From the NCBI RefSeq assembly GCF_019218265.1, contig NZ_JAHUZE010000001.1:496001-560000 (forward strand): a DNA stretch of 64,000 nucleotides, in the 5' to 3' direction. The first letter of the stretch is position 1. Every line of letters starts with the position of its first letter. Position numbers and translations under genes: made by a program. The notes under the pieces are model-generated. The model was not told where the DNA came from. It searched no databases and saw only the letters and a list, made by a program, of their open reading frames with translations. This stretch comes from Maritimibacter dapengensis (lineage in GTDB: Bacteria; Pseudomonadota; Alphaproteobacteria; Rhodobacterales; Rhodobacteraceae). Positions 33,366 to 52,723 of the stretch are shown here, one piece after another.

Positions 33366-35009
33366 ATGCAGGGCATGATGATGCATCGGCCTTTGTCGAT
33401 CATTTCCATTCTGGAATACGCGGCCGAGGCCCATGCGGGGTCGGGGATCGTGACACTCGAAACCCACGGCGAAGTGACGCGTCAGAGCTATGGCGAGACC
33501 TATCAACGGGTCGGACAACTGGCCCATGCGCTCAAGGCTATGGGCATCGACCCGGGGGACCGCGTCGCCACGCTGGCCTGGAATAACCGGCGGCATTTCG
33601 AGCTTTATTATGCGATTTCCGGGATCGGCGGCATCTGCCACACGATCAACCCGCGCCTGTCCGCCGAGCAAATGATCTATATCGTCAATCACGCCGAAGA
33701 TCGTGTGATTTTCGTCGATGCGACCTTCCTGCCGATCCTCGCCGCGCTACGCGAACATCTGCCGAAAGAACTGCGCATCGTGGTCATGGCGGATCACGAT
33801 CACATGCCCGACACCGAGTTGGAGGTGTTCTGCTACGAAGGGCTGATCGACGGGCAGAAGACGACCTACGACTGGCCCGAGCTGGACGAGAATACGGCCG
33901 CGAGCCTGTGCTATACGTCGGGCACGACCGGCAATCCCAAGGGCGCGCTTTATAGCCATCGTTCGACGGTGCTCCACGCGCTCATGGTCGGCACGATCCT
34001 CGGCCCGGCGCTTCCAAGCGGTGATAACGGCGAGACCAACATTCTGCCCGTGGTGCCGCTGTTCCACGTCAACGCCTGGGGTCTGCCCTATGCCGCGCCG
34101 ATCATCGGCGCGAACCTCGTTATGCCGGGGCCGGGTCTTGATGGCGAGAACCTGTGGAAGCTCATGGAGGCCGAGAATGTCGGGTCCGCTTGGGGCGTGC
34201 CGACGGTCTGGATGGGTCTTCTGGGCGAGATCGAGAAACAGGGCCGCAAGCCCGCCGCGCTCGAAGACGTCGTGGTGGGCGGATCCGCCGCGCCGCGCTC
34301 GATGATCGAGACGTTCGAGAAGATGGGTGTCAACGTGAACCACGCCTGGGGCATGACCGAGATGTCGCCCATCGGGACGCACGGCGTCATGCCGCCATGG
34401 GTCAACGATCTGCCGTTCGATGAGAAGATGAACTACAAGCAGCTTCAGGGCCGCAGGTGCTTCGGTGTCGATCTCAAGATTGTCGACGAGGAAGGAAACC
34501 GGCAACCGCATGACGGCGAGGCTATCGGCGAGCTGTTCGTGCGCGGCAACGCAGTTGTGTCGGGTTATTTCAAGAACGAAGAGGCGACCGCCGCCGCGCT
34601 GGATGCCGAAGGATGGTTCGGCACGGGCGACGTGGCCTCGATCGGCAAGGACGGGTTTCTGACGATCCAGGACCGGGCCAAGGACCTCATCAAATCGGGG
34701 GGCGAATGGATCTCGTCCATCGACCTCGAGAACGCCGCCATGAGCCATCCGGGGATCGCCAATTGCGCGGCCATCGGCGTGGCGCACCCGAAATGGGACG
34801 AACGCCCCGTGCTCGTCGCGGTCGCCGCGAAGGACACGAAGCCCTCGCTCGACGAATTGCGCGAGCATATGTCGGTCCATTTCGCGAAGTGGCAATTGCC
34901 CGACGACGTGGTGTGGGTGGATGAGCTGCCGCTGACCGCGACCGGCAAGGTGTCGAAACTGAACCTTCGCAAGCAACTCGCCGATTACAAACACCCCGAG
35001 GTGGCGTGA
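33366..35009 (+). CDS. AMP-forming fatty acid--CoA ligase
   Basis: 547 residues. Activates a carboxylic acid to its acyl-CoA via an acyl-adenylate. Seen: AMP loop CYTSGTTGNPKGALYSHRST, WGMTEMSP, the hinge region GWFGTGDVASI, then DRAKDLIKSGGEWIS, and C-terminal catalytic lysine in LTATGKVSKLNLR. ATG 33366 follows GGGAGGAG. The type resembles medium-chain or AlkK-like ligases. Divergent from the oxidoreductase/SDR operon with the shared operator-like site. Confidence 0.92.
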   Translation: MQGMMMHRPLSIISILEYAAEAHAGSGIVTLETHGEVTRQSYGETYQRVGQLAHALKAMGIDPGDRVATLAWNNRRHFELYYAISGIGGICHTINPRLSAEQMIYIVNHAEDRVIFVDATFLPILAALREHLPKELRIVVMADHDHMPDTELEVFCYEGLIDGQKTTYDWPELDENTAASLCYTSGTTGNPKGALYSHRSTVLHALMVGTILGPALPSGDNGETNILPVVPLFHVNAWGLPYAAPIIGANLVMPGPGLDGENLWKLMEAENVGSAWGVPTVWMGLLGEIEKQGRKPAALEDVVVGGSAAPRSMIETFEKMGVNVNHAWGMTEMSPIGTHGVMPPWVNDLPFDEKMNYKQLQGRRCFGVDLKIVDEEGNRQPHDGEAIGELFVRGNAVVSGYFKNEEATAAALDAEGWFGTGDVASIGKDGFLTIQDRAKDLIKSGGEWISSIDLENAAMSHPGIANCAAIGVAHPKWDERPVLVAVAAKDTKPSLDELREHMSVHFAKWQLPDDVVWVDELPLTATGKVSKLNLRKQLADYKHPEVA

Positions 35010-38041: not shown

Positions 38042-38755
38042 TCAGACTTCGAGCCACTCCGCCCGTACGTCGTCGCGCTTGGCGAACTCCGCAGGGGTTC
38101 CGGAATAGACGATCTCGCCATGCCCCATCACGTAGACGCGGTGAGCGATCCGGAGCGCGATCGAAAGTTTCTGTTCGACAAGCAGAATCGCCACCCCGGT
38201 CTTCGCGATCTCGGCGATCATGTCGCCGATCTGCTGCACGATCTTGGGCGCGAGCCCCTCTGTCGGCTCGTCGATGATGATCAGTTCCGGGTCGCCCATC
38301 AGCGTCCGGCACATGGTCAGCATCTGCTTCTCGCCGCCTGAGAGCACGCCCGCCTGATTGTCGGCCCGCGCGCGCAGGTTCGGGAACATGTCGAGCATCT
38401 CGTCGATGGTGTGACGCCCCGGATTGCGGGTGTCTTTTATGCCCATCAGAAGGTTCTGGCGCACCGTCATCGTCGGAAAGATGTCGCGTTCTTCCGGGAC
38501 GTATCCCAAACCCATCCGGGCGATCTTGTGGCTTTCCAGTCCCGAGATCGGTTTCCCTTTGAACAGGATTTCGCCCTTCGGCGCGACTTCTCCCATGATC
38601 GCCTTGGCGGTGGTCGATCGTCCCACGCCATTACGCCCAAGAAGCGCAATGACCTCGCCGGGCATGATCTCCATGTTCACGCCGCGCAGAACGTGGGATT
38701 TGCCGTAGAAGGCATGAAGGTCCTTCACGGACAGCATCGGTTCGGCGGTCATCAC
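38042..38755 (-). CDS. livF: branched-chain-type ABC transporter ATPase LivF
   Basis: 237-residue ATPase of the Liv-type importer. Seen: Walker A GRNGVGRSTTAKAI, signature LSGGEKQML, Walker B ELIIIDEPTEGLAP and the switch LLVEQKLSIAL. The Walker A lysine (GxxGxGK[ST]) is replaced by arginine: the codon reads CGA in the sequence. In most ABC proteins this change weakens ATP hydrolysis, but some LivF copies in other genomes carry it too. Its start overlaps the livG stop by four bases. Last gene of livKHMGF. Confidence 0.92.
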   Translation of the reverse strand: MMTAEPMLSVKDLHAFYGKSHVLRGVNMEIMPGEVIALLGRNGVGRSTTAKAIMGEVAPKGEILFKGKPISGLESHKIARMGLGYVPEERDIFPTMTVRQNLLMGIKDTRNPGRHTIDEMLDMFPNLRARADNQAGVLSGGEKQMLTMCRTLMGDPELIIIDEPTEGLAPKIVQQIGDMIAEIAKTGVAILLVEQKLSIALRIAHRVYVMGHGEIVYSGTPAEFAKRDDVRAEWLEV

Positions 38756-39525
38756 ACCATCTCCTTCACGTCGGGTTCTTCTTCGTCGCCGAGATAGGCT
38801 TCGCGCACCTTGGCATCGCCCCGGATGTTTTCGGGCGTGTCGCAGGCGATGATCTCGCCATAGACCAGCACCGAGATCCGGTCGGCGAGGTCGAAGATCA
38901 CGCCCATGTCGTGTTCGACGATGATGAGCGTCTTGCCTTCGGTCGCCGTGCGGATCAGCTGCACCGCGCGGTCGGTTTCGGAATGGGACATGCCCGCCGT
39001 CGGTTCATCGAGCAGGATCACGTCCGCCCCGCCCGCGATGGTGATCGCGATCTCCAGAGCGCGCTGGTCGGCATAGGGCAGGAGCGAGGCGGGCAGGGCG
39101 GCCTTGTCCACCAAACCGCAGCGTTCGAGGATCTCGTATGTGCGGCTCTGCACCTCCTTGTTCGACCCGATGTTACGCCACCACGAATACCCCTGACCCA
39201 TCGCGTTCAGCACACCGCAGCGCACGTTTTCGCGCACCGTCATGTTGATGAAGATGTTGGACACCTGGAATGAACGTGACAGGCCGCGATGGTTGATGAG
39301 ATGCGGGGCCATACCCGCAATCTCTTCACCATGCAGTTTCACGCTCCCCGAGGTCGGCGTGTAGAGACCGGAGATCAGGTTGAACAACGTGGACTTCCCC
39401 GCGCCGTTTGGCCCGATGATCGCATGACGCTCGCCTTTCTCGATGTCGAGGTTCACGTCGGTGATGATCTTGGCCGGACCGAAGCTCTTGTTCAGGTCTT
39501 TGAGAGACAATGCATAGGTGCTCAT
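38752..39525 (-). CDS. livG: branched-chain-type ABC transporter ATPase LivG
   Basis: 257-residue ATPase. Walker A GPNGAGKSTLFNLIS is intact, Walker B VILLDEPTAGM and switch IIVEHDMGVI are present. The signature position reads LLPYADQRALEIAI instead of the LSYGQQR-like form common in LivG, so the first residues of the signature are atypical. Overlaps livM and livF starts/stops by four bases each. Confidence 0.93.
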   Translation of the reverse strand: MSTYALSLKDLNKSFGPAKIITDVNLDIEKGERHAIIGPNGAGKSTLFNLISGLYTPTSGSVKLHGEEIAGMAPHLINHRGLSRSFQVSNIFINMTVRENVRCGVLNAMGQGYSWWRNIGSNKEVQSRTYEILERCGLVDKAALPASLLPYADQRALEIAITIAGGADVILLDEPTAGMSHSETDRAVQLIRTATEGKTLIIVEHDMGVIFDLADRISVLVYGEIIACDTPENIRGDAKVREAYLGDEEEPDVKEMV

Positions 39526-40781
39526 GCCGCGCCCTCCTTGTCACGATTGGCGAAGTAGGTCAGCGCGATCCCAGCCACGGTCGCCACGAGGAACAGGATC
39601 CAGGTCAGCGGGTTCGTATGGCTCAGGTGCATCCCGAAGGGTTCATAGACCTCACCATAGCCGTTCGACCAGCGGACCGAGACTTCGACGAGGATGATGA
39701 GCCCGATGAGCATCAGGAACCCACCGGCCAAAGTCGTGAACCACGATTTGAGGAAAGCGCCGCGATCGTCGCTCCGGAAACCGTCAAGGAACCCGAAGAC
39801 GATGCCCGCCAGCCCACGGGGGGCGAACATCACGATCACGATGAACAGCATCCCGAGATAAAGCAGCCAGGCCTCGGTGAAGTCCGACAGCATCGACTGC
39901 ATGTAGGTGAGCAGGATCGCCCCCATGATCGGCCCGACGAAATAGGCGATACCGCCGACGTAGGCCATGATGAGCACGAAGCCGGACGGCACGAGGCTCA
40001 GCGCATCGGGGGTGAAGATTTCATAATTCACCGCCGCCATGCCGCCTGCGAGACCGGCAAAGCCGCCCGCGAAGATGAACACGAGATAGCGCACCTTCTG
40101 TGGGTTGTAGCCGATGAACTGGACGCGTTGGGCATTGTCGCGGGTCGCTTCGGACAGCCGGCCCAGCGGCGTGCGGGTGAAGGCCCACATGCCGAGGATA
40201 CCGACGAACATCCAGAACGCTATGAACCAGTAGACATCGTCGATCGGACCCAACGACAGGCCGAACATCTGAGTCCCGTTCATGCGGTCGCCCGAGATGC
40301 CTTGTTCGCCGCCGAAGAAGCTGTCGAACATGAACGCGGCCGCGAAGATCAATTCCGCCACGCCGAGCGAGATCATGGCGAAGGTCGTGCCTGCCTTCCG
40401 AGTCGAGGGCCAACCGATGATCGCACCGGCGAGCGCGCCGCCCGCAAAGCCGACGATGGGCAGGAAGAAGACCGGGAAAGCACCCCATAGGCCCGCTTCC
40501 TCTTCGATCCAGCCCATTGCGTGAACGGCGAGATACCCACCGAGTCCGAAATAGACCGCATGGCCGAAGGACAGCAGCCCGCCCTTGCCGAGGATCATGT
40601 TGTAGGACAGCGCGAACACCACGTTGATGCCCATCTGGTGCGCAATGGTGTAGAAGGTCCGCGACGGGCCGGTCATCGGGATCGCGACAAGGATGGCCGC
40701 GAGGATCAGGAAGGGGAGCGTCCGCTGCCTGAATTTCTGCGCCGATGAGGGTGCGAGGTCTTGAACGGTGGTATCGGTCAC
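39522..40781 (-). CDS. livM: branched-chain-type ABC transporter permease LivM
   Basis: 419-residue permease with about ten hydrophobic segments. The hallmark LivM regions are AHQMGINVVFALSYNMILGKGGLLSFGHAVYFGLGGYL near the N-terminus (seen in pieces), GLAGGMAAVNYEIFTPD and YVGGIAYFVGPIMGAILLTY. A long cytoplasmic-looking segment with DRMNGTQMFGLSL follows the middle helices. Overlaps livH by four bases. Confidence 0.93.
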   Translation of the reverse strand: MTDTTVQDLAPSSAQKFRQRTLPFLILAAILVAIPMTGPSRTFYTIAHQMGINVVFALSYNMILGKGGLLSFGHAVYFGLGGYLAVHAMGWIEEEAGLWGAFPVFFLPIVGFAGGALAGAIIGWPSTRKAGTTFAMISLGVAELIFAAAFMFDSFFGGEQGISGDRMNGTQMFGLSLGPIDDVYWFIAFWMFVGILGMWAFTRTPLGRLSEATRDNAQRVQFIGYNPQKVRYLVFIFAGGFAGLAGGMAAVNYEIFTPDALSLVPSGFVLIMAYVGGIAYFVGPIMGAILLTYMQSMLSDFTEAWLLYLGMLFIVIVMFAPRGLAGIVFGFLDGFRSDDRGAFLKSWFTTLAGGFLMLIGLIILVEVSVRWSNGYGEVYEPFGMHLSHTNPLTWILFLVATVAGIALTYFANRDKEGAA

Positions 40782-41710
40782 AGCTCTTTCTCCCCCATGA
40801 GGCCCTGCGGGCGGAAGATCAGGATCAGAACGAGAAGCAGGAACGGTAGAACCGGTGCCAGCGACGAGATGCTGATCCGTCCGACTTCGCTAAGCTCGGA
40901 CAACCCGATGAAGCCGAAGATATCCGCGAACGAGGCGTTGATGCCGACGGCGAGGTTTTGCAAAAGGCCGATGACGAGAGACGCGACGAAGGCGCCTTCG
41001 AGCGACCCGATGCCCCCCACGACGACGACCACGAAGACGATCGGTCCCATCTGGACCGCCATTGCCGGGTCGGTGACGAAGATATTGCCCGCCATGACAC
41101 CGGCCAGACCGGCCAGCGCACAACCGATGCCGAACACCATCATGAAGATGAGCGGCACGTTATGGCCGAGATGCCCGACCATGTGCGGATGGGTCAGCGC
41201 GGCCTGGATGATGAGGCCGGCGCGGGTACGTTTGAGCAGATACCACAGGCCGATCAGCATACCGACGGCGATCACGATGATGAACAGGCGATAGGCCGGG
41301 AAGGAGGCGCCGTAGACCTGGAAGGCGGCGAAGTTCAGAAGATCGGGGATTTTGTAATCCACGGCGGTCTTGCCGTAGACGATCTTGACGACTTCCTCGA
41401 TCAGGTAGGCAAGCCCGAAGGTGAAAAGAAGCTCTGCGACATGGCCATTGGCATGGACCTTGCGCAGACCGTAACGCTCGACCACGGCCCCGACGAGACC
41501 GACAAGGACCGGCGCGATAAACAGCGCGATCCAGAAGCTCGAGATGCCCGAAAGCGTGAAAGCGAAATACGCGCCCAGCATGTAAAAGCTGGCGTGCGCG
41601 AAGTTCAGAACGCCCATCATCGAGAAGATGAGCGTAAGACCGGAGGACAGCATGAACAGGAGCAACCCGTAGCTCACACCGTTCAGAAGCCCGAAGACTA
41701 GCGTTTCCAT
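40778..41710 (-). CDS. livH: branched-chain-type ABC transporter permease LivH
   Basis: 310-residue permease with about eight helices. LivH marks are LNGVSYGLLLFMLSSGLTLIF, then GVLNFAHASFYMLGAYFA, the EAA-like loop GIGSLEGAFVASLVIGLLQN and the C-terminal LIFRPQGLMGEKEL. The ATG at 41710 starts the first helix (METLVFGLLNG). Separated from livK by a hairpin with a T-run, so it is probably less expressed than livK. Confidence 0.93.
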   Translation of the reverse strand: METLVFGLLNGVSYGLLLFMLSSGLTLIFSMMGVLNFAHASFYMLGAYFAFTLSGISSFWIALFIAPVLVGLVGAVVERYGLRKVHANGHVAELLFTFGLAYLIEEVVKIVYGKTAVDYKIPDLLNFAAFQVYGASFPAYRLFIIVIAVGMLIGLWYLLKRTRAGLIIQAALTHPHMVGHLGHNVPLIFMMVFGIGCALAGLAGVMAGNIFVTDPAMAVQMGPIVFVVVVVGGIGSLEGAFVASLVIGLLQNLAVGINASFADIFGFIGLSELSEVGRISISSLAPVLPFLLLVLILIFRPQGLMGEKEL

Positions 41711-41733
41711 TGAGACCTCGCCTGGGTGTAAAA

Positions 41734-41763
41734 AGGGCGCCGCGCGCTTCCGCACGGCGCCCT
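41734..41763 (-). terminator. attenuator-type terminator between livK and livH
   Basis: On the minus strand AGGGCGCCG pairs with CGGCGCCCT, and TTTTT follows. Placed right after livK, it would stop a share of transcripts before livHMGF, giving more binding protein than permease, a common arrangement in binding-protein-dependent importers. Confidence 0.72.
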
Positions 41764-41789
41764 ATCGTTCACAGCTACTTGGGGCCGGA

Positions 41790-43025
41790 TTACTCCGGGC
41801 GCTCCATTTCGCAGGTGGTCGGCTGTTCGGCGGACGCCATGTCGATGGTGCCACCTTCGACGAGTGCCCAGCCGAGCTCGATGTTGTCGACGCCGTATTT
41901 CACGTCGTCGGACACGGTCGAGATGAACAGCGGCTGCTGCATCTGGTGGTCCTCGGCGCGCATCGTTGCCTGGCCGTAGGCGTGGTCGATGGTCAAACCT
42001 TCCATGGCCTTTGCGACCGGGATCGGATCGACGGACCCGGCTTCTTCCGCAGCCTTGACGAACATTTCCATCGCGTTGAACGCGCGGTGGTAGTAGTAGT
42101 CGTAGTCCGGGAAGCGCTCCTTGTATTCCTCGATCAGGGCGTATTGTTCGTCGTCCGCGTCGAGGTTGGTGATGCCTTCGGTCACCTGGTAGAGGAGGCC
42201 GACGCCACCTTCACCCAGCGACGAAACCGCACCCTTGGACCCGCCGTAGAAGGTCAGGTAAGGCACGTCGGAGCCGTTTTCCGCAGCGGCCTTCATCAGA
42301 AGCTGCATGTCCGCGCCCCAGTTGCCGGTAATGACGGCATCCGCGCCCGAGGAAATGATCTTCTGAATGTAGGGCGTGAAGTCCTTCACCTTGGCGAGCG
42401 GGTGAAGCTCGTTGCCCACGATCTCGATGTCCGGGCGCTTCTCCTTGAGTTGCTCTTCCGCAGCCGAAGCCACGGCCTGCCCGAAGACGTAGTCCTGACC
42501 GATCAGGTAGACCGACTTGATGTCGTCGCGCTTGGCGATCCAGTCGGTGATGGCGGCCATTTTCATGTCGGCATGTGCGTCGAAACGGAAATGCCAGAAG
42601 CTGCAAAGCTCATTGGTGAAGGCCGGCGTGACGGCGGCGTAGTTGAAGAAGATGACCTCTTCGCCGGGGTTGCGGGCGTTGTGCTTGTTCACGGCTTCGA
42701 TCAGCGCGGCGGCCACGGACGAGCCGTTGCCCTGGAAGATGTAGCGCGCCCCATCGTCGATGGCCTTCTGAAGCTGAACCAGCGATTCCTTGGGGTTGAT
42801 CTTGTTGTCGTAGCCGGTGACTTCGATTTCGTTGCCGTTCACGCCACCATTGGCATTGATGTGTTCGGCAGCGAGGATGAAGCTCGTGTAGGCGGCTTCA
42901 CCCGACGGGCCCATGGGGCCGGAAAGCGGGTCGATGAATGCCATTTTGACAGTGTCGGCATAGGCGGCCGACATGGCCATGACGGACGTAGCGGCCGCCA
43001 GAATGGCGGTTTTTCTGAAAGTCAT
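41790..43025 (-). CDS. livK: branched-chain-type ABC transporter substrate-binding protein LivK
   Basis: 411-residue periplasmic binding protein with signal peptide MTFRKTAILAAATSVMAMSAAYA and mature start DTVKMAFIDPLSGPMGPSGEA. The family's Leu/Ile/Val-binding fold is evident (YIFQGNGSSVAAALIEAVNK; VYLIGQDYVFGQAVASAAEE; VITGNWGADMQLLMKAA). Liv-type proteins also bind aromatic and aliphatic acids or amides; in this CoA-catabolic setting the ligand is probably the substrate or its precursor. Start at ATG 43025; divergent from the acyl-CoA dehydrogenase operon over operator copy 2. Confidence 0.92.
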   Translation of the reverse strand: MTFRKTAILAAATSVMAMSAAYADTVKMAFIDPLSGPMGPSGEAAYTSFILAAEHINANGGVNGNEIEVTGYDNKINPKESLVQLQKAIDDGARYIFQGNGSSVAAALIEAVNKHNARNPGEEVIFFNYAAVTPAFTNELCSFWHFRFDAHADMKMAAITDWIAKRDDIKSVYLIGQDYVFGQAVASAAEEQLKEKRPDIEIVGNELHPLAKVKDFTPYIQKIISSGADAVITGNWGADMQLLMKAAAENGSDVPYLTFYGGSKGAVSSLGEGGVGLLYQVTEGITNLDADDEQYALIEEYKERFPDYDYYYHRAFNAMEMFVKAAEEAGSVDPIPVAKAMEGLTIDHAYGQATMRAEDHQMQQPLFISTVSDDVKYGVDNIELGWALVEGGTIDMASAEQPTTCEMERPE

Positions 43026-43116
43026 AAGGTCCTCCCTTTTTCGAAATACCGGGATTCTGTCCCGGGCATTCCCGGCAACAGTCAACGAGACAGGTCTCGT
43101 GCTGTCAAGGAATTTG

Positions 43117-43141
43117 TGAAACTGAATTTTGCATTGCAAAA
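43117..43141. promoter_or_regulatory. conserved operator-like site, copy 2
   Basis: TGAAA-N5-TTTTGC-ATT-GCAAAA, the perfect form of the palindrome shared with 33278-33302 and 59959-59983. It sits 47 bp before the acyl-CoA dehydrogenase start and 91 bp from livK, in the divergent spacer, so it may control both the liv operon and the 12-gene catabolic operon. The TTGC-N3-GCAA core resembles sites reported for PhaR/PhbF-type regulators of polyhydroxybutyrate metabolism; the IclR product at 52735 is another candidate. Confidence 0.78.
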
Positions 43142-43188: not shown

Positions 43189-44376
43189 ATGGCAGATGGG
43201 GACAAGCAGGCTTTGGCCGAATTTCGCGCCGAAATCGCGGATTGGATCGACCGCACCGCGCCGCCCGAAATCCGCGACCGGGACTTCAGTGAAGACGATA
43301 TCTGTTGGGGCGGCAAACGGTTCGTATTTGCCTCCGATGGTCAGAAGGCCTGGATGGAAGCCTGCGCGGAGCGCGGGTTGACCGCGCCGATGTGGCCTAC
43401 CGAATATGGTGGAGCAGGGCTGACCCGCGCGCAGGACAAGATCTTCAAGGAAGAGCTCGACCGTTTGCGGGTCAAAAAACCGCTGGACAGTTTCGGCCTC
43501 TGGATGCTCGGCCCCGCGCTTCTCGCGTTCGGGACGGAAGATCAGAAAAAGCATTTCCTCCCGCAGATCACGCGGGGCGAGATCCGCTGGTGCCAGGGAT
43601 ACTCCGAACCCGGTGCAGGATCCGACCTTGCGAGCGTGCAGACATGGGCCGAGGACAAGGGCGATCATTGGGTCGTCAATGGATCGAAGATCTGGACCTC
43701 GTATGCGGACAAGGCCGACTGGATATTCGCCCTCATCCGCACAGACCGCGACGCGCCCAAGCACAAGGGCATCAGCTTCATGCTGATCGACATGGAGAGC
43801 GAGGGCGTCTCCACCAAGCCCATCAAGCTGATCTCCGGCAAGTCGCCGTTCTGCGAGACCTTTTTCACCAACGTGAAGGTGCCGAAAGACTATGACGGCC
43901 TGTCCTCGATCGTGGGGGAAGAGAACCGGGGCTGGGATGTCGCAAAGCACCTGCTCACCCATGAGCGCGAGATGATCGGAGGTGGCGGATCGGGGCTGAC
44001 CGGCGGGCGCAGCGTCGGAACGGTACTCGCCGACGAGGGCCAGAGCGACCCGGTCATCCTGAGCCGCGCGATGAAGCTTGAGGTGGATTCGATTGCGATG
44101 GCGCTGACGCTCGACCGCTACAAGGATCTGGCCAAACAGGGCGGGGTCGGCAACGCCTCGGCGATGCTGAAGTATTACGGCACCGAGCTGAACAAAGACC
44201 GGTTCGAACTGCTCATGTCGGCGGGTGGTTCCGAAGCCCTGAAATGGGAGAGCGATGCGCATGGCACGCTCGCCCCCGAATGGCTCCGCACCAAGGCAAA
44301 CTCGATCGAGGGCGGCACCAGCGAGGTGATGCTCGAAATTCTGTCCAAGCGCGTGCTTGAACTACCGGCACGGTGA
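43189..44376 (+). CDS. acyl-CoA dehydrogenase, large-subunit type
   Basis: 395 residues. First gene of a 12-gene run. It has the FAD/substrate region WCQGYSEPGAGSDLASVQT and WVVNGSKIWTSY, and the C-terminal flavin-contact motif SIEGGTSEVMLEILSKRVLEL. The next gene is a shorter acyl-CoA dehydrogenase, and the pair resembles the heteromeric enzymes (alpha2-beta2) known from steroid side-chain breakdown. ATG 43189 follows GGGAGGAG. The close relative is 55063-56250. Substrate inferred as a bulky or branched acyl-CoA. Confidence 0.93.
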   Translation: MADGDKQALAEFRAEIADWIDRTAPPEIRDRDFSEDDICWGGKRFVFASDGQKAWMEACAERGLTAPMWPTEYGGAGLTRAQDKIFKEELDRLRVKKPLDSFGLWMLGPALLAFGTEDQKKHFLPQITRGEIRWCQGYSEPGAGSDLASVQTWAEDKGDHWVVNGSKIWTSYADKADWIFALIRTDRDAPKHKGISFMLIDMESEGVSTKPIKLISGKSPFCETFFTNVKVPKDYDGLSSIVGEENRGWDVAKHLLTHEREMIGGGGSGLTGGRSVGTVLADEGQSDPVILSRAMKLEVDSIAMALTLDRYKDLAKQGGVGNASAMLKYYGTELNKDRFELLMSAGGSEALKWESDAHGTLAPEWLRTKANSIEGGTSEVMLEILSKRVLELPAR

Positions 44377-44386
44377 GGAAGACGAC

Positions 44387-45493
44387 ATGACGACACTTGT
44401 TGCAACCGAAGACGAAGTGATGCTGCGCGATGCGGCGCACGGGTATCTCGACGGGGCCGCGCCGGTCCGAAACCTGCGCGAAAACCGCGAAGCGGGCCGG
44501 GGGTTCGACCCGAAGGTCTGGGCCGAGATGGTCGAGATGGGCTGGGCCGGCGTGCTCGTGCCCGAGGATCAGGGCGGCTCGGACATGGGCTTTGCCGCCG
44601 CCAACATCCTCGCCGAAGAAATGGGACGCACGCTCGTGTCCTCTCCTTTTTTGTCGACCGCCGTAATCGCCGCGACCGCACTCCGCAAAGCGGGACGCGA
44701 TGCTTCGCGGATCGCGTCGGGCGAGGCGATTTATGCGCTCGCGGTGGACGAGGGGCCGAAATTCGACCCGGACGGATGCGCGCTGCGCGCCGAGGCTGCG
44801 GGCAACGGGTTCAAACTGTCTGGCGCGAAGACTTTCGTCGCCGAGGGGATGAGCGCCGACCGGGTGCTTGTGCTGGCCCGTGCCCATGCCGGGCTGACGC
44901 TGTTCGATCTCGACGCACGCGCCGCCGGCCTGTCCCGCGAGAAAATGGACCTTGTGGATAGCCGCGACCACGCCGACCTGACCTTCGACGATGTCGAAGC
45001 CACCGGCGAGGATGTGGTGGGCGAGGTGGGAGACGGCATGGGCGCGCTTGCGCCGGCGCTTCGCGCTGGGCAGGCAGCCGTCTCCGCCGAGCTTCTCGGG
45101 CTGTCTGCCGGAGCGTTCGGGATGACGACCGACTATCTCAAGGAGCGAAAGCAATTCGGCGTGGTGATCGGGACGTTCCAGGCGCTCCAGCACCGGGCCG
45201 CGCACCTGTTCTCCGAAATCGAGGTGACCACCTCTGCCGTGATGAATGCAGGCCGGATGCTGGACGAAGCGCCGGACGAGGCCGAGCTTGCGGTGTCGCT
45301 GGCCAAAGCGCGGGCGTCCGAGACCGCCGGGCTCGCGGTGCGCGAAGGCGTGCAGATGCATGGCGGGATTGGGATGACCGACGAATACGATATGGGGTTC
45401 TACATGAAACGTGCCCGCGTCGCCGCCGAATGGCTGGGTGATTATGGTTATCACGCCGCGCGTGTGGCCCGGGCTCGGGGGATGGTCGCATGA
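44387..45493 (+). CDS. acyl-CoA dehydrogenase, small-subunit type
   Basis: 368 residues, starting ten bases after the first dehydrogenase gene. It keeps the acyl-CoA dehydrogenase fold but lacks the usual FAD-contact YSEPGAGSD region. It ends with the RxGVQMHGGIGMTDEYDMGF-type segment (VREGVQMHGGIGMTDEYD) as in the beta partners of heteromeric enzymes. It probably completes the flavin site of the 395-residue subunit. The gene at 54003-55061 is the same kind of partner for 55063-56250. Overlaps the next SDR by four bases. Confidence 0.88.
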   Translation: MTTLVATEDEVMLRDAAHGYLDGAAPVRNLRENREAGRGFDPKVWAEMVEMGWAGVLVPEDQGGSDMGFAAANILAEEMGRTLVSSPFLSTAVIAATALRKAGRDASRIASGEAIYALAVDEGPKFDPDGCALRAEAAGNGFKLSGAKTFVAEGMSADRVLVLARAHAGLTLFDLDARAAGLSREKMDLVDSRDHADLTFDDVEATGEDVVGEVGDGMGALAPALRAGQAAVSAELLGLSAGAFGMTTDYLKERKQFGVVIGTFQALQHRAAHLFSEIEVTTSAVMNAGRMLDEAPDEAELAVSLAKARASETAGLAVREGVQMHGGIGMTDEYDMGFYMKRARVAAEWLGDYGYHAARVARARGMVA

Positions 45494-46308
45494 GCCTGAC
45501 GCCCCCCGACCTGTTCGATTTGACCGGCAAGGTCGCGCTCGTCACTGGCGGTGCGACCGGGATCGGTCGCATGGCGACCGAAGGGCTCGCCGCGGCTGGG
45601 GCGCGCGTGCTGATTGCCAGCCGCAAGGCCGATGCCTGCGAAGCGGTTGCGACGGAGATCAATGCACTGGGCTATCCCGGCAGCGTCGAAGGCTTCGGCG
45701 GTGACGTGGCCTCGCAGGCGGGCGTGGATGCGCTCGCTACCGAGGTCGGCGGACGCACCGACAAGCTGCACATTCTGATGAACAATGCAGGCCGGACCTG
45801 GGGCGCACCACTGGGTGAATTTCCGTTCGAAGCCTGGACCAAGGTCATGGATTTGAACAATGCGGGCATGTTCCAACTGACGCAGGCGCTTCTGCCGATG
45901 CTCGAGGCATCGACGAGTTTCGACGATCCCGCCCGCGTGGTGAATGTCGGCTCGGTCATGGGCGATGTGCCCAAGGGGGCCGGAGCCTATAGCTATTCGG
46001 TGTCCAAGGCGGGTGTGCACCACATGACGCGCATCCTCGGGAACGAACTGGCCGAACACCACATCACCGTGAACGCGCTCGCGCCCGGACCTTTCGAGTC
46101 GAAAATGACCGCCTTCGCGTTGGCCGACGAGAAACGTGCCGAGAAGACCGCCGAGGGCGTTCCGCTCCGGCGGCTGGGTGCCGCGTCCGACGTCGCCGCC
46201 ACGATGCAGTTCCTGTGCGGAAAAGGCGGCTCCTATGTCACGGGTGCGATCATCCCGATCTCCGGCGGCATCAATTGCCACGCCGGTGGCAGCCTGTTTG
46301 CGGAGTAG
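45490..46308 (+). CDS. short-chain dehydrogenase/reductase
   Basis: 272-residue SDR. TGGATGIGRMATEGLAAAGA cofactor loop, ILMNNAGRTWG, VNVGSVMG with the catalytic serine, and YSYSVSKAG with tyrosine and lysine, then the usual C-terminus IIPISGG. It probably oxidises a hydroxyacyl-CoA made by the MaoC hydratase next door. Overlaps the upstream dehydrogenase by four bases. Confidence 0.92.
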   Translation: MSLTPPDLFDLTGKVALVTGGATGIGRMATEGLAAAGARVLIASRKADACEAVATEINALGYPGSVEGFGGDVASQAGVDALATEVGGRTDKLHILMNNAGRTWGAPLGEFPFEAWTKVMDLNNAGMFQLTQALLPMLEASTSFDDPARVVNVGSVMGDVPKGAGAYSYSVSKAGVHHMTRILGNELAEHHITVNALAPGPFESKMTAFALADEKRAEKTAEGVPLRRLGAASDVAATMQFLCGKGGSYVTGAIIPISGGINCHAGGSLFAE

Positions 46309-46312
46309 GAAA

Positions 46313-46768
46313 ATGAAACTCGAAGAATTCAAGGCGTTGGAAGGTCAGGAGGTCGGTGTCTCCAAGTGGTTCGAGATCACGCAAGCGCGGATCGACCAAT
46401 TCGCCGACGCGACCGAGGATTGGCAATACATCCATACGGACCCGGAATCTGCCGCCAAGACGCCGTTCGGGGGCACCATCGCGCACGGTTTTCTCACCCT
46501 CAGCCTGTTGTCGGCCATGGTCTATGACGCGCTGCCGAATGTTGACGGGGTGACGATGGGCGTGAACTACGGAATGAACAAGTTGCGCTTCATCTCGCCG
46601 GTTCCGGTCGGTTGCAGGGTTCGCGCGCGCTTCGTTCTCGCCTCTTGCGACACGTCGAAGCCGGGAGAGTTCACGACGATCACGAATGTAACGGTCGAGA
46701 TCGAGGGCGCGGAAAAACCGGCGCTGATCGCGGAATGGATCGGCCGCAGATACATGGAGACGACATGA
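46313..46768 (+). CDS. MaoC-family enoyl-CoA hydratase
   Basis: 151-residue hotdog protein with the R-hydratase-type motif: residues around ATEDWQYIHTDPESAAKTPFGGTIAHGFLTLSL (here in pieces), giving the catalytic aspartate and histidine in D-x(4)-H and HG. It hydrates an enoyl-CoA to a 3-hydroxyacyl-CoA. ATG 46313 is four bases after the SDR stop. It overlaps the next SDR (ATGA). Confidence 0.92.
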   Translation: MKLEEFKALEGQEVGVSKWFEITQARIDQFADATEDWQYIHTDPESAAKTPFGGTIAHGFLTLSLLSAMVYDALPNVDGVTMGVNYGMNKLRFISPVPVGCRVRARFVLASCDTSKPGEFTTITNVTVEIEGAEKPALIAEWIGRRYMETT

Positions 46769-47688
46769 GCAACGAATTTCAGGGCCGCGTGGCCATCGTG
46801 ACCGGCGCGGGCGTCGGGTTGGGCCGCAGTCATGCGCTGGGCCTTGCCGAACGCGGTGCGAAGGTTGTGGTGAACGACCTCGGAGTTTCGACGGATGGGA
46901 GCGGCTCGGGGTCCGATGCCGCCCGCGCAGTGGTCGCGGAAATCCGCGAAAAGGGCGGTCATGCCATCGCCAACGGCGCCGATGTGACCTCGCGCGAGGA
47001 CACGCAGGCGATGGTCGAAGAGGCCATCGCGGAATTCGGTCATATCGACATCCTCGTGAACAACGCCGGTATCCTTCGCGACAAGACCTTCACCAAGATG
47101 GACCTCGATGATTTCTGGAAAGTCGTGGATGTGCACCTGATGGGGTCGGTGAATTGCACGAAAGCCGTCTGGTCCCACATGAACGCGCGCGAGTACGGGC
47201 GGATCGTGATGACGACGTCGGCGTCGGGCCTTTATGGCAACTTCGGCCAATCGAACTATGGCGCGGCCAAGGCCGGTGTCGTTGGGCTGATGAACGTGCT
47301 GGCGCAGGAGGGCGCGAAAAAGAATATCCGCGTGAACACGCTCGCCCCCACGGCGGCGACCCGGATGACCGAAGACCTGCTACCCGAACAGGTGCTCGCG
47401 CTTCTGAAACCCGAAACGATCACGCCCGGCCTTCTCGCCCTCGTGACAGAAGACGCGCCGACCAAGATGATCCTTGGTGCAGGCGGCGGTTGTTTCGCCG
47501 AAACCCGGATCACCGAAACGCGCGGCGTTGCGCTCGCAGATGACGAGATCAATCTCGAAGGTGTGCTGGCCGCGATGGACCGCATTCGCGACCCCGAAGG
47601 CGCGACCGAGATGGCCAATGCCTTTACCCAGACACAGAAATACGTCGGCCTTGCTGCCGAACTCCGCGGCATCGTCCTGCCCGGCTGA
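46765..47688 (+). CDS. SDR-family dehydrogenase of the multifunctional-enzyme type
   Basis: 307-residue SDR resembling the dehydrogenase unit of peroxisomal multifunctional enzyme 2. It has [20 protein letters not shown], a [20 protein letters not shown] insertion typical of that group, [26 protein letters not shown], and [11 protein letters not shown] with the catalytic tyrosine and lysine. It likely oxidises 3R-hydroxyacyl-CoA produced by the MaoC hydratase. Overlaps that gene by four bases; the thiolase follows. Confidence 0.92.
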
Positions 47689-47714
47689 CCGAACAAACAA
47701 GAGGAACCGAACCT

Positions 47715-48917
47715 ATGCGTGACGCCGTCATCGTCTCAACCGCCCGCACCCCGATTGGCAAAGCCTATCGCGGCGCGTTCAACAACACACATGCGCAGGA
47801 ATTGATCGGCCACGCCGTGAAACATGCCGTCGACCGCGCCGGGCTCGACGGCTCTGAGGTGCAGGATTGCGTCATCGGAACGGCGATCCAGCAGGGCTCG
47901 ACGGGTGGCAACATCGGGCGTCAAGCGGTGATCCGCGCGGGGCTTCCGGTGTCGGTCGCGGGCATGTCCATGGACCGCCAGTGCGCGAGCGGCATGATGG
48001 CCATCGCGACGGCGGCGAAACAGGTCGTGCACGACGGAATGCAGGTCGCCATCGGCGGCGGGGTGGAATCGATCAGCCTCGTGCAGAACCAGAACATGCG
48101 CACCGATCACATGGCCGACCCCTGGACCAAAGAACACAAGCCCGAGCTCTACATGACCATGCTCGAAACCGCCGAGATCGTCGCCGAGCGTTACGGCGTG
48201 AGCCGTGAGGATCAGGACGCCTATGCGCTCCAGTCCCAACAGCGCACGGCAGCGGCGCAGGAGGCGGGGCGCTTCGATGATGAGATCGTGCCGCTCACCT
48301 CGACGCAGGCGATTATCGACCGTGAAACCAAAGAGGTTTCCTATGCCGAGGTGACGCTGGAAAAAGACGAGGGCAACCGCCCCTCGACCACGCTTGAGAA
48401 CCTCGAAGGTCTGTCGCCCGTCTTCAAGGACGGCCAGCAGGTCAAGGACGGCAAATACATCACCGCGGGGAATGCGAGCCAACTGTCCGATGGCGCCTCG
48501 GCGGCGGTCATCATGGAGGCCAAGGAAGCCGAGCGGCGCGGGCTTCAGCCGCTGGGCCGCTACGTCGGCGTCATGGCGGCGGGCTGTGAGCCGGACGAGA
48601 TGGGCATCGGCCCGATCTATGCGGTGCCCAAGCTGCTCGAAGCGCATGGGTTGAAGATGGACGACATCGGGCTGTGGGAGTTGAACGAGGCTTTCGCTTC
48701 CCAGGTGCTGCAATCTCAACGGGTGCTGGGCATCCCGAACGAGATCATGAACGTGGACGGCGGTGCGATTTCCATCGGCCACCCCTATGGCATGTCCGGT
48801 GCCCGGATGGTCGGCCACGCGCTGATCGAGGGCAAGCGCCGGGGCGCGAAATACGTGGTCTGCACCATGTGCGTGGGCGGCGGCATGGGGGCCGCGGGCC
48901 TGTTCGAAGTTCTGTGA
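47715..48917 (+). CDS. thiolase (acetyl-CoA C-acyltransferase)
   Basis: 400-residue degradative-type thiolase. Nucleophile cysteine in [12 protein letters not shown] (about residue 91), NEAFASQV, histidine in [11 protein letters not shown], and second cysteine in [15 protein letters not shown]. It cleaves a 3-ketoacyl-CoA with CoA. The NEAFA-GHP-CVGGG order is normal. Start ATG 47715 follows AGAGGA. Closes the first half of the operon; the ACAD10/11-like module begins after a 94-bp spacer with a palindrome. Confidence 0.94.
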
Positions 48918-48952
48918 GAATAACGCGCGAGACGTAAACATCATTGCGCATC

Positions 48953-48972
48953 TTTGAACATCTGTGTTCAAA
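48953..48972. promoter_or_regulatory. palindrome upstream of the ACAD10/11-like module
   Basis: TTTGAACA-TCTG-TGTTCAAA, eight-base perfect arms. It sits 40 bp before the start of the acyl-CoA dehydrogenase gene at 49012, in the only sizeable spacer of the 12-gene run, so an internal, separately regulated promoter is likely. The IclR regulator encoded four genes later is a candidate to bind it. Confidence 0.6.
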
Positions 48973-49011
48973 TGGCGCGACCCGGACGATCCGGGATAGG
49001 AGGAGAAAGAC

Positions 49012-50253
49012 ATGTCCATGGACCTGGGCGTCACCAAGAAGGTGCAACCGCTGATCGACGCCGTGCGCAAGATGATCGACGAAGACATCGTGCCGGCGAA
49101 CGAGGAATACCATGCCGAGATCGGCAACAACCCGGAGCACGACCGCTTCAAGCTCAACGACCGGCAACTCGAGATTCTCGACGGCCTGAAAGCCGAGGCG
49201 AAAAAGCGTGGGCTCTGGAACTTCTGGCTGACCGACAGTGACCGGGGCTATGGGCTGACCACGGTGGAATACGCCTATCTTGCCGAAGAGATGGGAAAAT
49301 GCCCGCTCGCCGCCGAGGTGTTCAACTGCTCGGCGCCCGATACCGGCAACATGGAGGTGCTGGAGCGCTACGGAACGGATGAACACAAGGAAAAGTGGCT
49401 CACCCGTCTCCTCGATGGCGAGATTCGCTCAGCCTATGTGATGACCGAACCGAACGTGTCGTCTTCGGACCCGACGCAGCTTTCCTTCGAGGCGAAGAAG
49501 GACGGCGACGAATGGGTGCTGAACGGCGAGAAATGGTGGATCTCGGGCGCGGGCGATCCGCGTTGCGCGGTCTACATCGTCATGGCTTGCACCGACCCCG
49601 AAGCGCATCGCCATTCGCGCCACTCGATGTTCGTGATGGATGCCGACACGCCGGGTGTTGAAATCATTCGCCCGATGCAGGTCTTCGGAAACGACGACGC
49701 GCCGCACGGCCACATGCACATGCGGTTCAAGGATGTGCGCATCCCGGCGGACGCGCTGATCCTGGGCGAAGGGCGCGGCTTCGAGGTCGCGCAGGGCCGG
49801 CTTGGACCGGGCCGCATCCACCATTGCATGCGCGCCATCGGTCAGGCTGAACGCGCGCTCGAGATGATGTGCAAGCGCGGGCTGACCCGCGAAGCCTTCG
49901 GCAAGAAAATCGCGACCCTCGGCGCGAACTACGACATCATCGCCAACTGCCGCATGGAAATCGAAATGGCCCGGCTCCTGTGCCTCAAGGCCGCGCATAT
50001 GATGGACACGGTCGGTGTGCGCGAAGCGCAGCCCTGGATCAGCCAGATCAAGGTCGTTGCCCCGCTGATGTCGACCAAGGTCGTGGACGAGGCGATGCAG
50101 ATGCACGGCGGCGAAGGGATCAGCCAGGATCAGCCGCTCGCAGGCATGTATACCTCGCTGCGCACCCTGCGCTTCGCGGACGGCCCTGACGCGGTTCATC
50201 GTCGTCAGGTGGCGCGCGCCGAATTGCGCAAATACACGAACGAGAAGATCTGA
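49012..50253 (+). CDS. acyl-CoA dehydrogenase of the ACAD10/ACAD11 type
   Basis: 413 residues. It resembles the dehydrogenase half of eukaryotic ACAD11 over long stretches. Typical are MTEPNVSSSDPTQLSF, EKWWISGAGDPRCAVYIVM, the signature LILGEGRGFEVAQGRLGPG followed by RIHHCMR, and the C-terminal MHGGEGISQDQPLAGMYTSLR. In ACAD10/11 the partner domain is a kinase; here that kinase is a separate gene at 50926. Known members act on 4-hydroxyacyl-CoA after phosphorylation. GGAGGAGAAAG precedes ATG 49012. The histidine-phosphatase gene starts immediately after the stop. Confidence 0.92.
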   Translation: MSMDLGVTKKVQPLIDAVRKMIDEDIVPANEEYHAEIGNNPEHDRFKLNDRQLEILDGLKAEAKKRGLWNFWLTDSDRGYGLTTVEYAYLAEEMGKCPLAAEVFNCSAPDTGNMEVLERYGTDEHKEKWLTRLLDGEIRSAYVMTEPNVSSSDPTQLSFEAKKDGDEWVLNGEKWWISGAGDPRCAVYIVMACTDPEAHRHSRHSMFVMDADTPGVEIIRPMQVFGNDDAPHGHMHMRFKDVRIPADALILGEGRGFEVAQGRLGPGRIHHCMRAIGQAERALEMMCKRGLTREAFGKKIATLGANYDIIANCRMEIEMARLLCLKAAHMMDTVGVREAQPWISQIKVVAPLMSTKVVDEAMQMHGGEGISQDQPLAGMYTSLRTLRFADGPDAVHRRQVARAELRKYTNEKI

Positions 50254-50916
50254 GTGGGACTGCTCACCGTCATCCGTCACGCCCAAGCCTCGTTCGGGGC
50301 GGCGAATTATGACCAGCTTTCCCCGCTGGGTCATCGCCAATCCGAGGCTCTGGGCGCGGCGATGAAGGCCCAGGGAGTGGCGTGGCCGGACCGCGTCTTC
50401 GTAGGTGAACAGGTGCGCCACCGGGAAACCTTCGACGGCGTCGCGCGTGCCTACGGCGCGGATGTGGAGCCCGAGGTGCATCCCGGTCTCAACGAGTTCG
50501 ACTTCGGCGGGTTGCTCGAGGCGCACGAGAAATCCGAGTCGCTTCCAGAGCGCACCACCGGCGACCGCGCGGCGCATTTCCGGCAACTCAAAGCCACCGT
50601 GCTCGCCTGGCAGCGTGACGAGATTTCATCGCCCCCTGAAACCTTCGCGGCCTTCGTCGGTCGGGTGCAGGACGCGCTCGAAGCGGCACGGGGCGCGGAT
50701 AGCGTGATGATGTTCTCCTCCGGCGGCGCGATCAGCCAGATGATCCGGCTGGTCCTGAACGCGCCGGCAGATCAGCAGATCCTGCTTCAGCTTCAGATGA
50801 AGAACTGCGCCGTGAACCGTTTCGTGCAGGGACGAAACGCGACCTATCTGCACGGCTTCAACGAAACACCGCATATCGACGCCCTCAACGCGTCCGAGAT
50901 GCTGACCTATAGCTGA
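50254..50916 (+). CDS. histidine phosphatase family protein
   Basis: 220 residues starting with GTG 50254, directly after the TGA of the dehydrogenase. N-terminal TVIRHAQASFG has the phosphorylated histidine (RHG appears as RHA). Further marks are FVGEQVRHRETF with the second arginine, NEFDFGGLLEAHE, and the C-terminal catalytic histidine-like SSGGAISQMIRL region, where the usual histidine of the family is not obvious. It lies between the ACAD10/11-type dehydrogenase and kinase genes and may dephosphorylate a dead-end or the phosphorylated intermediate. Confidence 0.87.
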   Translation: MGLLTVIRHAQASFGAANYDQLSPLGHRQSEALGAAMKAQGVAWPDRVFVGEQVRHRETFDGVARAYGADVEPEVHPGLNEFDFGGLLEAHEKSESLPERTTGDRAAHFRQLKATVLAWQRDEISSPPETFAAFVGRVQDALEAARGADSVMMFSSGGAISQMIRLVLNAPADQQILLQLQMKNCAVNRFVQGRNATYLHGFNETPHIDALNASEMLTYS

Positions 50917-50925
50917 GGGGCCGCG

Positions 50926-51948
50926 ATGACCGACACCCAGACCCTCGATACCGCCGCCGTCGCAAAATGGGCCGAGGCCAATATCGATGGCTTCAAGGGC
51001 CCGATCGAGGCCGAGAAATTCAACGTCGGTCAGTCAAACCCGACCTTCCGCCTCGTTACCCCTACGGGTCCGTATGTCCTGCGCCGAAAGCCGCCGGGGC
51101 AGCTTCTGAAATCCGCACATGCAGTGGATCGGGAGTTTCGCGTTCAATCCGCCCTCGCGGACACGGATGTGCCGGTGGCCCGCATGTACGCGCTCTGCGA
51201 GGACCCTGAGGTAATCGGGTCGGATTTCTACATCATGGAAGCAGTGGACGGGCGCAACATCGACGACCCGCGCATCCCCGATGTGTCGAACGAGGAACGG
51301 GCCGCGATCTATGCCGAGATGTGCCGGGTTCTCGCCGCAATCCATTCGGTCGACATCGAAGCGGTCGGGCTTTCCGATTACGGACCGCCAGGAAATTACT
51401 TCGAGCGGCAAGTGGGACGCTGGACCAAGCAATACCGCGCCTCCGAGACCGAGGACATTCCGGCGATGAACGCACTCATTGACTGGCTCGGTGCGAATAT
51501 CCCCGAGGAAAACCAACGCCGCCTCGTTCATGGCGACTACCGCATCGACAACATGCTGTTCGAGAAGACCGGGTCGCGCTGCGCCGCCGTGCTCGATTGG
51601 GAGCTGTCAACCATCGGCCACCCCTATGCCGACCTCGCTTCCCTGCTCATGCAATGGCAGATGCCGCCGGGCGCCGAGGGCAGGGGGCTGGAGGGTGTCG
51701 ACCGCGCGAGCCTTGGTATTCCGAGCGACGAAGCTTTCGTCGAGATGTATTGCAAGGCCCGCGACCTTCCGGGGATCGACAACCTCAATTTCTACGTCGC
51801 CTTTGCCTTCTTCCGCATGGCCGGGATCATTCAGGGTGTCTACAAACGCGCGCTGGACGGGAATGCCTCGAATCCCGAACGTGCCATACGTTTGGGCAAG
51901 GCGGTGCCGAGCTTCGCTCAAAAGGGAATGGAGGCCGCGAATGGCTGA
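50926..51948 (+). CDS. APH-type phosphotransferase, kinase part of an ACAD10/ACAD11-like system
   Basis: 340-residue aminoglycoside-phosphotransferase-fold kinase. It closely resembles the N-terminal kinase domain of ACAD11: VGQSNPTFRLVTPTGPYVLR, RKPPGQLLKSAHAVDREFRV, TDVPVARMYALCEDPEVIG. Catalytic loop HGDYRIDNMLF and the metal aspartate in LDWELSTIGHPYADLA are present. It is inferred to phosphorylate the hydroxyl of a hydroxyacyl-CoA, enabling phosphate elimination by the dehydrogenase. Overlaps the next SDR by eight bases. Confidence 0.9.
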   Translation: MTDTQTLDTAAVAKWAEANIDGFKGPIEAEKFNVGQSNPTFRLVTPTGPYVLRRKPPGQLLKSAHAVDREFRVQSALADTDVPVARMYALCEDPEVIGSDFYIMEAVDGRNIDDPRIPDVSNEERAAIYAEMCRVLAAIHSVDIEAVGLSDYGPPGNYFERQVGRWTKQYRASETEDIPAMNALIDWLGANIPEENQRRLVHGDYRIDNMLFEKTGSRCAAVLDWELSTIGHPYADLASLLMQWQMPPGAEGRGLEGVDRASLGIPSDEAFVEMYCKARDLPGIDNLNFYVAFAFFRMAGIIQGVYKRALDGNASNPERAIRLGKAVPSFAQKGMEAANG

Positions 51949-52723
51949 TTTCGAAGGCAAGGTCGTTCAGATCACGGGTGCCGCGTCCGGTTTCGGCGCG
52001 CTGGCGGCTGCGGATTTCGCGGCAAAAGGCGCACGGCTCTTGCTGTCCGACGTAAACGAGGTGGGTTTGAACGAAGTCGCGGATGCGCTCCGGTCCGACG
52101 GGGCCGATGTGATTTCGGAGGTTTTTTCTGTCACCGATGACACGGCCATGGCGCAGCACATCGCAAGCGCCCTCGACCGTTGGGGCACGCTCGACATTGC
52201 GCTCAACAACGCAGGGATCGGCAACGGCGTGGTGAAGTTGCAGGACATCCCGCTCGAAGATTACGACCGGGTGATGGACATCAACGCCAAGGGCGTGTTC
52301 ATCGGCATGCGTCACCAGATCCCGGTCATGATGAAAGCCAACACAGGCGCGATCCTCAACACCGCGTCCGCCGCCGGGCTGGTTGGATCAGGACATCTGT
52401 CGGCCTATGCCGCCTCGAAACACGCGGTGATCGGCATGACGAAAGCCGCCGCCGACGAGGTCGCGCGCTACAACATCCGCGTGAACGCCATCTGCCCGTC
52501 CTTCGCTTCGACCCCGATGGTCGAAAGCATGGGCGACATGGTCGGTGCCGCCCACGGCATCAGCCGCGAAGACGCCTACAAACGCATCGCCGCCCGCGTG
52601 CCGATGCGCCGGGTCGCCGAGCCCGCCGAGGTCGTGCAGGCCATGCTTTTCATCGTATCCGACGCGAACAGTTTCATGACCGGACAGGCCATTTCCGTTG
52701 ATGGAGGTCTGACTGCTGTATAA
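51941..52723 (+). CDS. short-chain dehydrogenase/reductase
   Basis: 260-residue SDR. ITGAASGFGALAAADFAAKG cofactor loop, NNAGIGNGV, NTASAAGL, YAASKHAVIGM with tyrosine and lysine, and a C-terminal TGQAISVDGG. ATG 51941 lies eight bases inside the 3' end of the kinase gene. In the levulinate (Lva) and ACAD10/11-type pathways an SDR acts next to the kinase, so a hydroxyacyl-CoA oxidoreductase role is plausible. Confidence 0.92.
   Translation: MADFEGKVVQITGAASGFGALAAADFAAKGARLLLSDVNEVGLNEVADALRSDGADVISEVFSVTDDTAMAQHIASALDRWGTLDIALNNAGIGNGVVKLQDIPLEDYDRVMDINAKGVFIGMRHQIPVMMKANTGAILNTASAAGLVGSGHLSAYAASKHAVIGMTKAAADEVARYNIRVNAICPSFASTPMVESMGDMVGAAHGISREDAYKRIAARVPMRRVAEPAEVVQAMLFIVSDANSFMTGQAISVDGGLTAV

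Follow-up and report, generated by a model that had tools for sequence, protein, structure and literature searches.

A 25-bp element with three copies in a cluster of acyl-CoA genes is, in our assessment, highly likely to be the operator of an IclR-family protein encoded at 52735-53547 of the window (the whole 64,000-nucleotide stretch of Maritimibacter dapengensis DNA that was analyzed). We infer binding by this protein, its ligand and the sign of its control from the arrangement of sites and genes. A preliminary description of the same DNA had proposed that one operator joins three transcription units into one regulon. Conservation within the genus and in other genera, together with co-occurrence with the iclR gene, strongly supports this reading, which is very probably real. 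That description also named two candidate regulators, and these fared differently: synteny, co-occurrence and a published three-box motif point to the IclR protein, whereas the distribution of PhaR and the boxes at the phasin promoter argue against PhaR.

A pattern scan located exact matches to TGAAA-N5-TTTYGC-N3-GCRAAA on the plus strand at 33278..33302 (operator A), 43117..43141 (operator B) and 59959..59983 (operator C), with five bases between TGAAA and TTT in every copy. All three lie outside genes; the flanking gene starts or ends are at 33236 and 33366 for A, 43025 and 43189 for B, and 59885 and 60072 for C. Operator B consists of box 1 (TGAAA, 43117-43121), box 2 (TTTTGC, 43127-43132) and box 3 (GCAAAA, 43136-43141), and its core, TTTTGCATTGCAAAA, reads directly as a perfect, odd-length palindrome. 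The original observation of positions, spacing, intergenic placement and palindromic middle copy was confirmed in each of these respects. At up to three mismatches, the window contains five matches against 0.34 expected from shuffles. The two non-exact matches are the operator B palindrome read in reverse and a 3-mismatch match at 58907 within a CoA ligase gene. The whole-genome scan that had been suggested earlier returned only the same three exact copies in the 3.96-Mb genome (20 contigs), all inside the window and confined to one 27-kb stretch. Near matches comprised one with one mismatch (contig C2, 256035) and four with two mismatches; at up to three mismatches, the genome-wide count was at noise level (38 versus 28 in a reversed control).

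Operator A lies between a leftward pair of genes for an SDR and an NADPH-dependent oxidoreductase (31441..33236, minus strand; Pfam and NCBIfam) and a rightward acyl-CoA ligase gene (33366..35009, plus strand; AMP-binding, 5.7e-72). The oxidoreductase scored 441.9 bits against NF058644 (cut-off 440), and the top NCBIfam model for the ligase was 3-(methylthio)propionyl-CoA ligase, at a score under the cut-off. Operator B separates the leftward livF-livG-livM-livH-livK transport operon (38042..43025, minus strand; by Pfam two ABC_tran, two BPD_transp_2, and Peripla_BP_6 for livK) from a large rightward operon. Twelve genes had been counted there, and we find 11 from 43189 to 53547 plus a 4HBT thioesterase frame behind iclR. 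The ten genes ahead of iclR (43189..52723, plus strand; Pfam, with the first dehydrogenase assigned by reading and its hits) encode, in order, two acyl-CoA dehydrogenases, an SDR, a MaoC hydratase, an SDR, a thiolase, an ACAD11-like dehydrogenase (49012-50253), a histidine phosphatase (50254-50916; Pfam), an ACAD11-like kinase (50926-51948) and an SDR; the two ACAD11-like proteins were recognized by PDB matches to ACAD11. The gene for the IclR-family regulator, the proposed binder, is the eleventh (52735..53547, plus strand). The twelfth (53550..53948, plus strand) has an uncertain start codon and lies in a frame at 53343-53948 with a 4HBT match of 2.6e-10. Operator C is ahead of a leftward four-gene operon (54003..59885, minus strand; NCBIfam and Pfam) encoding an acyl-CoA ligase, a FadB-like hydratase/dehydrogenase and two acyl-CoA dehydrogenases.

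We compared homologous promoters in eight Maritimibacter genomes, the window's genome included. Operators A, B and C were each present at the orthologous promoter in all eight, as the preliminary description would predict. Some orthologous sites carry one to three mismatches; a single mismatch to the relaxed pattern YGAAANNNNNTTYYGCNNNGCRRAA was seen in one A site and in four C sites. Conservation reached 0.94-0.99 in the 17 specified columns versus 0.61-0.74 in the flanks. The aligned site lists were drawn with patterns that contain box 1, but A, B and C were still recovered in 8/8 genus genomes, so no orthologue was lost to the motif filter there. With up to one mismatch, the relaxed pattern gave 38 matches in the eight genomes versus 4 in the control. 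Thirty of the 38 are the A-D sites used for alignment; the other eight, of which four come from G149, three from the window's genome and one from G155, were not counted. The G149 site at 3187991 represents an additional copy close to operator B. When up to two mismatches were allowed, the strict pattern gave 43 matches in the genus versus 11 in the control.

The single one-mismatch site of the window's genome, site D (C2:256035), lies 71 bp ahead of a MerR-MerR-acyl-CoA dehydrogenase group. It is an exact relaxed-pattern match in 6/8 genus genomes, and a degenerate version with three mismatches occupies the same place in G155. The MerR orthologue of site D was looked for in G151 and none was found. 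Two divergent thioesterase genes adjoin the site in four of the six genomes that have it. A separate exact match to the relaxed pattern in the window's genome (C4:337371, locus L008) lies between a DUF3089 gene and a HxlR-like gene, the latter named by eye. We did not keep it as a regulon member because no counterpart appears among the matches in the other seven genus genomes.

An orthologue of the IclR protein was detected in all eight genus genomes and, at E<=1e-60, in 16 of 149 family genomes. Outside the genus, 15 of the 148 other genera searched had a match at this threshold, with 51-59% identity. Six of seven named matches to the protein were from Maritimibacter, including M. alkaliphilus HTCC2654 and M. 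harenae, and one was from an 'uncultured Defluviimonas'. The strict pattern occurred in 1/149 family genomes, the window's own, and gave the first impression of a lineage-specific motif. We rejected this impression, as the IclR neighborhoods of other genera contain the operator in reworded form. The form CGAAATGCAATTCTGCACAGCGGAA, or one close to it, precedes the genes leading to iclR in 14 of the 15 other genera, and in the fifteenth (G109) a 2-mismatch candidate lies 39 bp ahead of the first dehydrogenase gene.

The operator also tends to accompany livK. Among the 15 loci from other genera, livK is behind iclR in ten, divergent as in the window in one (G063) and absent from the stretch in four. 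Adding G005 and G137 gave 13 loci with livK, ten of which have an operator with up to two mismatches within 550 bp upstream of this gene, one of them being the shared site of G063. The relocated liv operons, those behind iclR, have an operator of their own before livK in 9/12 cases (up to two mismatches); the relocated livK genes of loci L051, L052 and L058 have no site at this stringency in the 550 bp upstream. When the same 260 kb were subjected to one mononucleotide shuffle, no such match appeared, versus 27 in the actual sequence, the 27 counting some palindromes on both strands.

Co-occurrence across the family links the site to the regulator gene. The relaxed pattern gave 28 exact matches in 20 of the 149 family genomes versus one for the reversed control. 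It was present in 14/16 IclR-positive versus 6/133 IclR-negative genomes (Fisher 2.6e-13), a test that is partly circular, since the loci used to derive the relaxed pattern are themselves IclR-positive. A less biased comparison starts from the first dehydrogenase gene of the operon, which is found in 24/149 genomes. Where the operon occurs with IclR, 13 of 14 genomes have a site with up to one mismatch within 500 bp, versus 3/10 where it occurs without IclR (Fisher 0.0023). The remaining seven of these ten have no site within 500 bp even at three mismatches. Six of those seven, read over 12-20 kb, have no site at two mismatches, and G041, read likewise, has one. One of these six, G134 (contig C8, L238), has the operon and liv genes arranged as usual but lacks both this iclR and the operator.

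An IclR-family gene is found in or beside the regulon and co-occurs with the sites, with three exceptions. G005 keeps the operator and has a decayed local iclR (L144, 14677-15436), while operator and operon look intact; G137 keeps the operator and is missing iclR at the locus; and in G041, where no IclR reached E<=1e-60, the site has one mismatch. The IclR paralogues of G005 and G137 are distant (26-40% identity) and might bind the operator there. Four further genomes (G017, G020, G064 and G072) have a relaxed-pattern match without an IclR at E<=1e-20, and we take these matches as chance. In G154 (contig C26, L166), a second IclR, 49% identical to the window protein, has as its neighbor a CoA ligase with 47% identity to the one at 58374; the 19 kb read there contain no operator at two mismatches.

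The protein at 52735..53547 has the expected domains (Pfam HTH_IclR, 3.3e-16; IclR_C, 3.9e-13), and its recognition-helix region is largely conserved in the 18 readable sequences of 23 orthologues. Its best NCBIfam model is TIGR02431 (PcaR/PcaU/PobR), at 109.1 bits against a cut-off of 284.75, which places it by score as a relative, not a member, of that family. A survey of 181 orthologous groups (Suvorova and Gelfand 2021, PMC8222616) describes group 1 IclR sites that include the palindrome WTTYCRYW3RYGRAAW (WTT-11-AAW), group 2 sites of the form TGRAACA-N1-2-TGTTYCA, and three-box sites in which groups 1 and 2 overlap, the last in 32 orthologous groups.

We aligned 30 sites from the genus with 26 from other genera, the latter chosen by synteny. 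Positions 10-26 of the alignment follow the group 1 form, with TT at 11-12, AA at 24-25 and 11 bases between them; G15, C16, G20, C21 and R22 occur in nearly all 30 + 26 sites. Position 14 is C or T, making the group 1 fit looser. Positions 1-15 follow group 2 if a spacer of one base is taken, which places the first box on positions 1-7. In the genus (n=30), this box is T1 in 28, G2 in 30, A3 in 29, A4 in 30, A5 in 30 and C6 in 20 sites. A7 and the TG that opens box 2 are not conserved, so the group 2 fit is partial. The group 2 spacing explains why five bases always separate TGAAA from TTT, and the TGAAA box most likely serves the operator as its third half-site. Judged by its form, the site belongs to the known three-box IclR class, to which it adds a new member. 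A literature search that covered few subscription journals found no published description of this regulon; a prediction may be present in the supplements of PMC8222616.

The position of the operators relative to promoter elements is also conserved. The edge of operator B is 8 bp away from a leftward -35 hexamer, TTGACA, at 43103..43108 (minus strand), and TTGAC[ACT] is found at this offset in 23 of 24 aligned B promoters. In the 24th, from G150 (L085), an operator-like copy with two mismatches is located between operator B and TTGACA, likewise 8 bp from the hexamer. A consensus promoter scan returned nothing at A and B, including no -10 for the leftward hexamer of B. At C it returned a leftward promoter, TTGACC-N17-TACGAT (59925..59953, minus strand), whose -35 is 5 bp from the operator edge, an offset seen in 8/8 genus genomes. 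In five loci examined from other genera, the leftward gene at B is an oxidoreductase-like frame, not livK (Pfam ADH_zinc_N in L054, the one tested), indicating that the geometry of operator and -35 outlasted a change of gene. On the rightward side of B, the operator is 47 bp before the start codon in the window, and the first aligned dehydrogenase codon is 26-67 bp past the operator in IclR-positive genomes.

These features suggest how the operator may work. The group 1 palindrome (WTT-11-AAW) would be made up of boxes 2 and 3 (TTYYGC-N3-GCRRAA), and box 1 (YGAAAC) would pair with box 2 in group 2 style. The result would be three half-sites in alternating direction, probably covered in full by one or two IclR dimers. 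Placement directly upstream of a leftward TTGAC(A/C) -35 (8 bp at B, 5 bp at C) would suit activation of the leftward genes, and protein bound at B could repress or autoregulate the rightward operon. As iclR is the eleventh gene of the operon behind operator B, it is probably autoregulated. Some acid or acyl-CoA of the pathway served is the probable ligand and would alter the effect of IclR. The predicted regulon, in which acid-degradation and uptake genes of this marine bacterium would be switched jointly, comprises two CoA ligases, the oxidoreductase-SDR pair, the liv transporter, the 12-gene operon and the four-gene operon, and in Maritimibacter would also take in the MerR/acyl-CoA dehydrogenase group at C2:256 kb.

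The likeness of the operator core to PhaR sites, pointed out in the preliminary description, is genuine. The middle site contains TTGCATTGCAA, which fits NYGCRNYGCRN, a consensus given in PMC12542648. The core YGC-N3-GCR is compatible with this Sinorhizobium PhaR consensus, which has AT-rich arms, and with the loose Bradyrhizobium consensus in PMC10888616. The window's genome contains a PhaR gene, and the sites could be read as PhaR boxes and the regulon as answering to polyhydroxybutyrate granules. However, PhaR is encoded in 144/149 genomes and the operator is found in 20/149 (relaxed) or 1/149 (strict); a near-universal PhaR is unlikely to be the reader of so rare a site. The phasin promoter of this genome (C1, L143 732-769; phasin identified as Pfam Phasin_2) carries two CTGC-N3-GCAG boxes 27 bp apart, CTGCGGTGCAG and CTGCACCGCAG, without a TGAAA box, and none of the five relaxed-pattern sites of the genome is at this promoter. 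PhaR would also leave the third box and the link to iclR unexplained. We rejected it as the binder on its distribution and on the box form at the phasin promoter, and regard the polyhydroxybutyrate reading as very unlikely, although PhaR may make a weak contact with the operator core.

Other regulators adjoin the sites. A MarR gene (36062-36532) is close to them in the window and has homologues near sites in G151, G152 and G155, but no MarR homologue (E<=1e-10) was found when loci of 18-20 kb from the 15 other genera were searched, and we rejected it on synteny. The MerR gene beside site D starts 71 bp from it; its orthologues occur in 37 of 40 genomes tried, and of 30 loci examined, a site lies upstream in 6/7 genus members but 0/23 members of other genera. 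We rejected this MerR because its gene is common in genomes that have no site there, and binding by either neighbor is hardly probable. A further MerR gene at 30971 appears by eye to encode a metal regulator beside a cation transporter. A reading compatible with our preferred one is that several IclR paralogues recognize the operator, the 52735 protein among them, and that a paralogue took over where the local gene decayed. The operators kept by G005 and G137 after loss of the local iclR would fit this, as would the second IclR copy of G154 (49%) and a 36% paralogue in G005 that shares a contig, other than that of the decayed iclR, with further operator-like sites. Yet the only other IclR at E<=1e-20 in the window's genome is 31% identical, and the local iclR is kept in 8/8 genus genomes; we consider this reading unlikely. 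Chance repetition in promoter DNA with no common regulator would agree with the genome-wide count near control (38 versus 28 at up to three mismatches). It is practically irreconcilable with five matches in the window against 0.34 expected, with sites kept at three promoters in 8/8 genomes while their flanks diverge, and with recurrence of the signal in 14 other genera.

The genes under the proposed IclR operator give some indication of its purpose. In PDB searches, the kinase (50926-51948) matched the kinase domain of ACAD11 at 1.9e-80 and the dehydrogenase (49012-50253) matched its ACAD domain at 9.5e-124; each search also gave a higher-scoring bacterial protein whose function is not stated. 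The operon encodes both an ACAD11-like kinase and an ACAD11-like dehydrogenase, their genes separated by a single other gene. ACAD10 and ACAD11 are reported to channel 4-hydroxy acids into beta-oxidation, as LvaA and LvaC do in bacteria (PMC11342911). Our guess is that the regulon serves a 4-hydroxy acid or a lactone-derived substrate. We tentatively extend this to a fuller scenario, which is possible but on balance doubtful. IclR would be specialized in sensing a 4-hydroxy acid, or one with a similar substitution, or the corresponding CoA ester. Acting at the three-box operator, it would activate uptake through liv as well as the four-gene operon while restraining or autoregulating the split-ACAD11 operon opposite, a single element working in both directions. 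The operator would accompany liv across lineages, and in Maritimibacter it would be a new acquisition of the promoter of the MerR/acyl-CoA dehydrogenase group.

A motif noticed by eye is in this way turned into a testable regulon with a named candidate regulator. The bacterial operon with split ACAD11-type enzymes gains a candidate regulator and, through it, a possible inducer. The sites also offer a natural experiment for the idea of two dimerization modes on three-box sites, raised as an untested idea in PMC8222616, with copies before relocated operons, duplicates and apparently new gains across genera as material.

The regulon resembles several known systems in part. As in the lva operon (PMC11342911), kinase and dehydrogenase are on separate genes; in contrast to what is described there, a histidine phosphatase gene lies between the two, and the operon is larger. 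PhaR boxes, with which the preliminary description groups PhbF sites, share the YGC-N3-GCR core but differ in having no third box, in their distribution and in the CTGC-N3-GCAG form at the phasin promoter here. Our literature search found no details of the PcaU operator. The PcaU and PobR operators of Acinetobacter, according to PMC8222616, are likewise read by IclR-family proteins and combine a palindrome with an extra external half-site, a third box that PcaU is cited as requiring for binding. They differ in that the regulon here concerns acyl-CoA, not protocatechuate, in the sequence of the half-sites, and in that our protein scores under the family cut-off. Closest are the three-box IclR operators as presented in PMC8222616. 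These share the TT-11-AA palindrome with a TGRAAC box at group 2 spacing, giving three alternating boxes, as well as sites within tens of bases of gene starts and a regulator gene inside the regulon. Compared with the consensus given there, position 14 can here also be T, and the core is fixed as GC-N3-GC.
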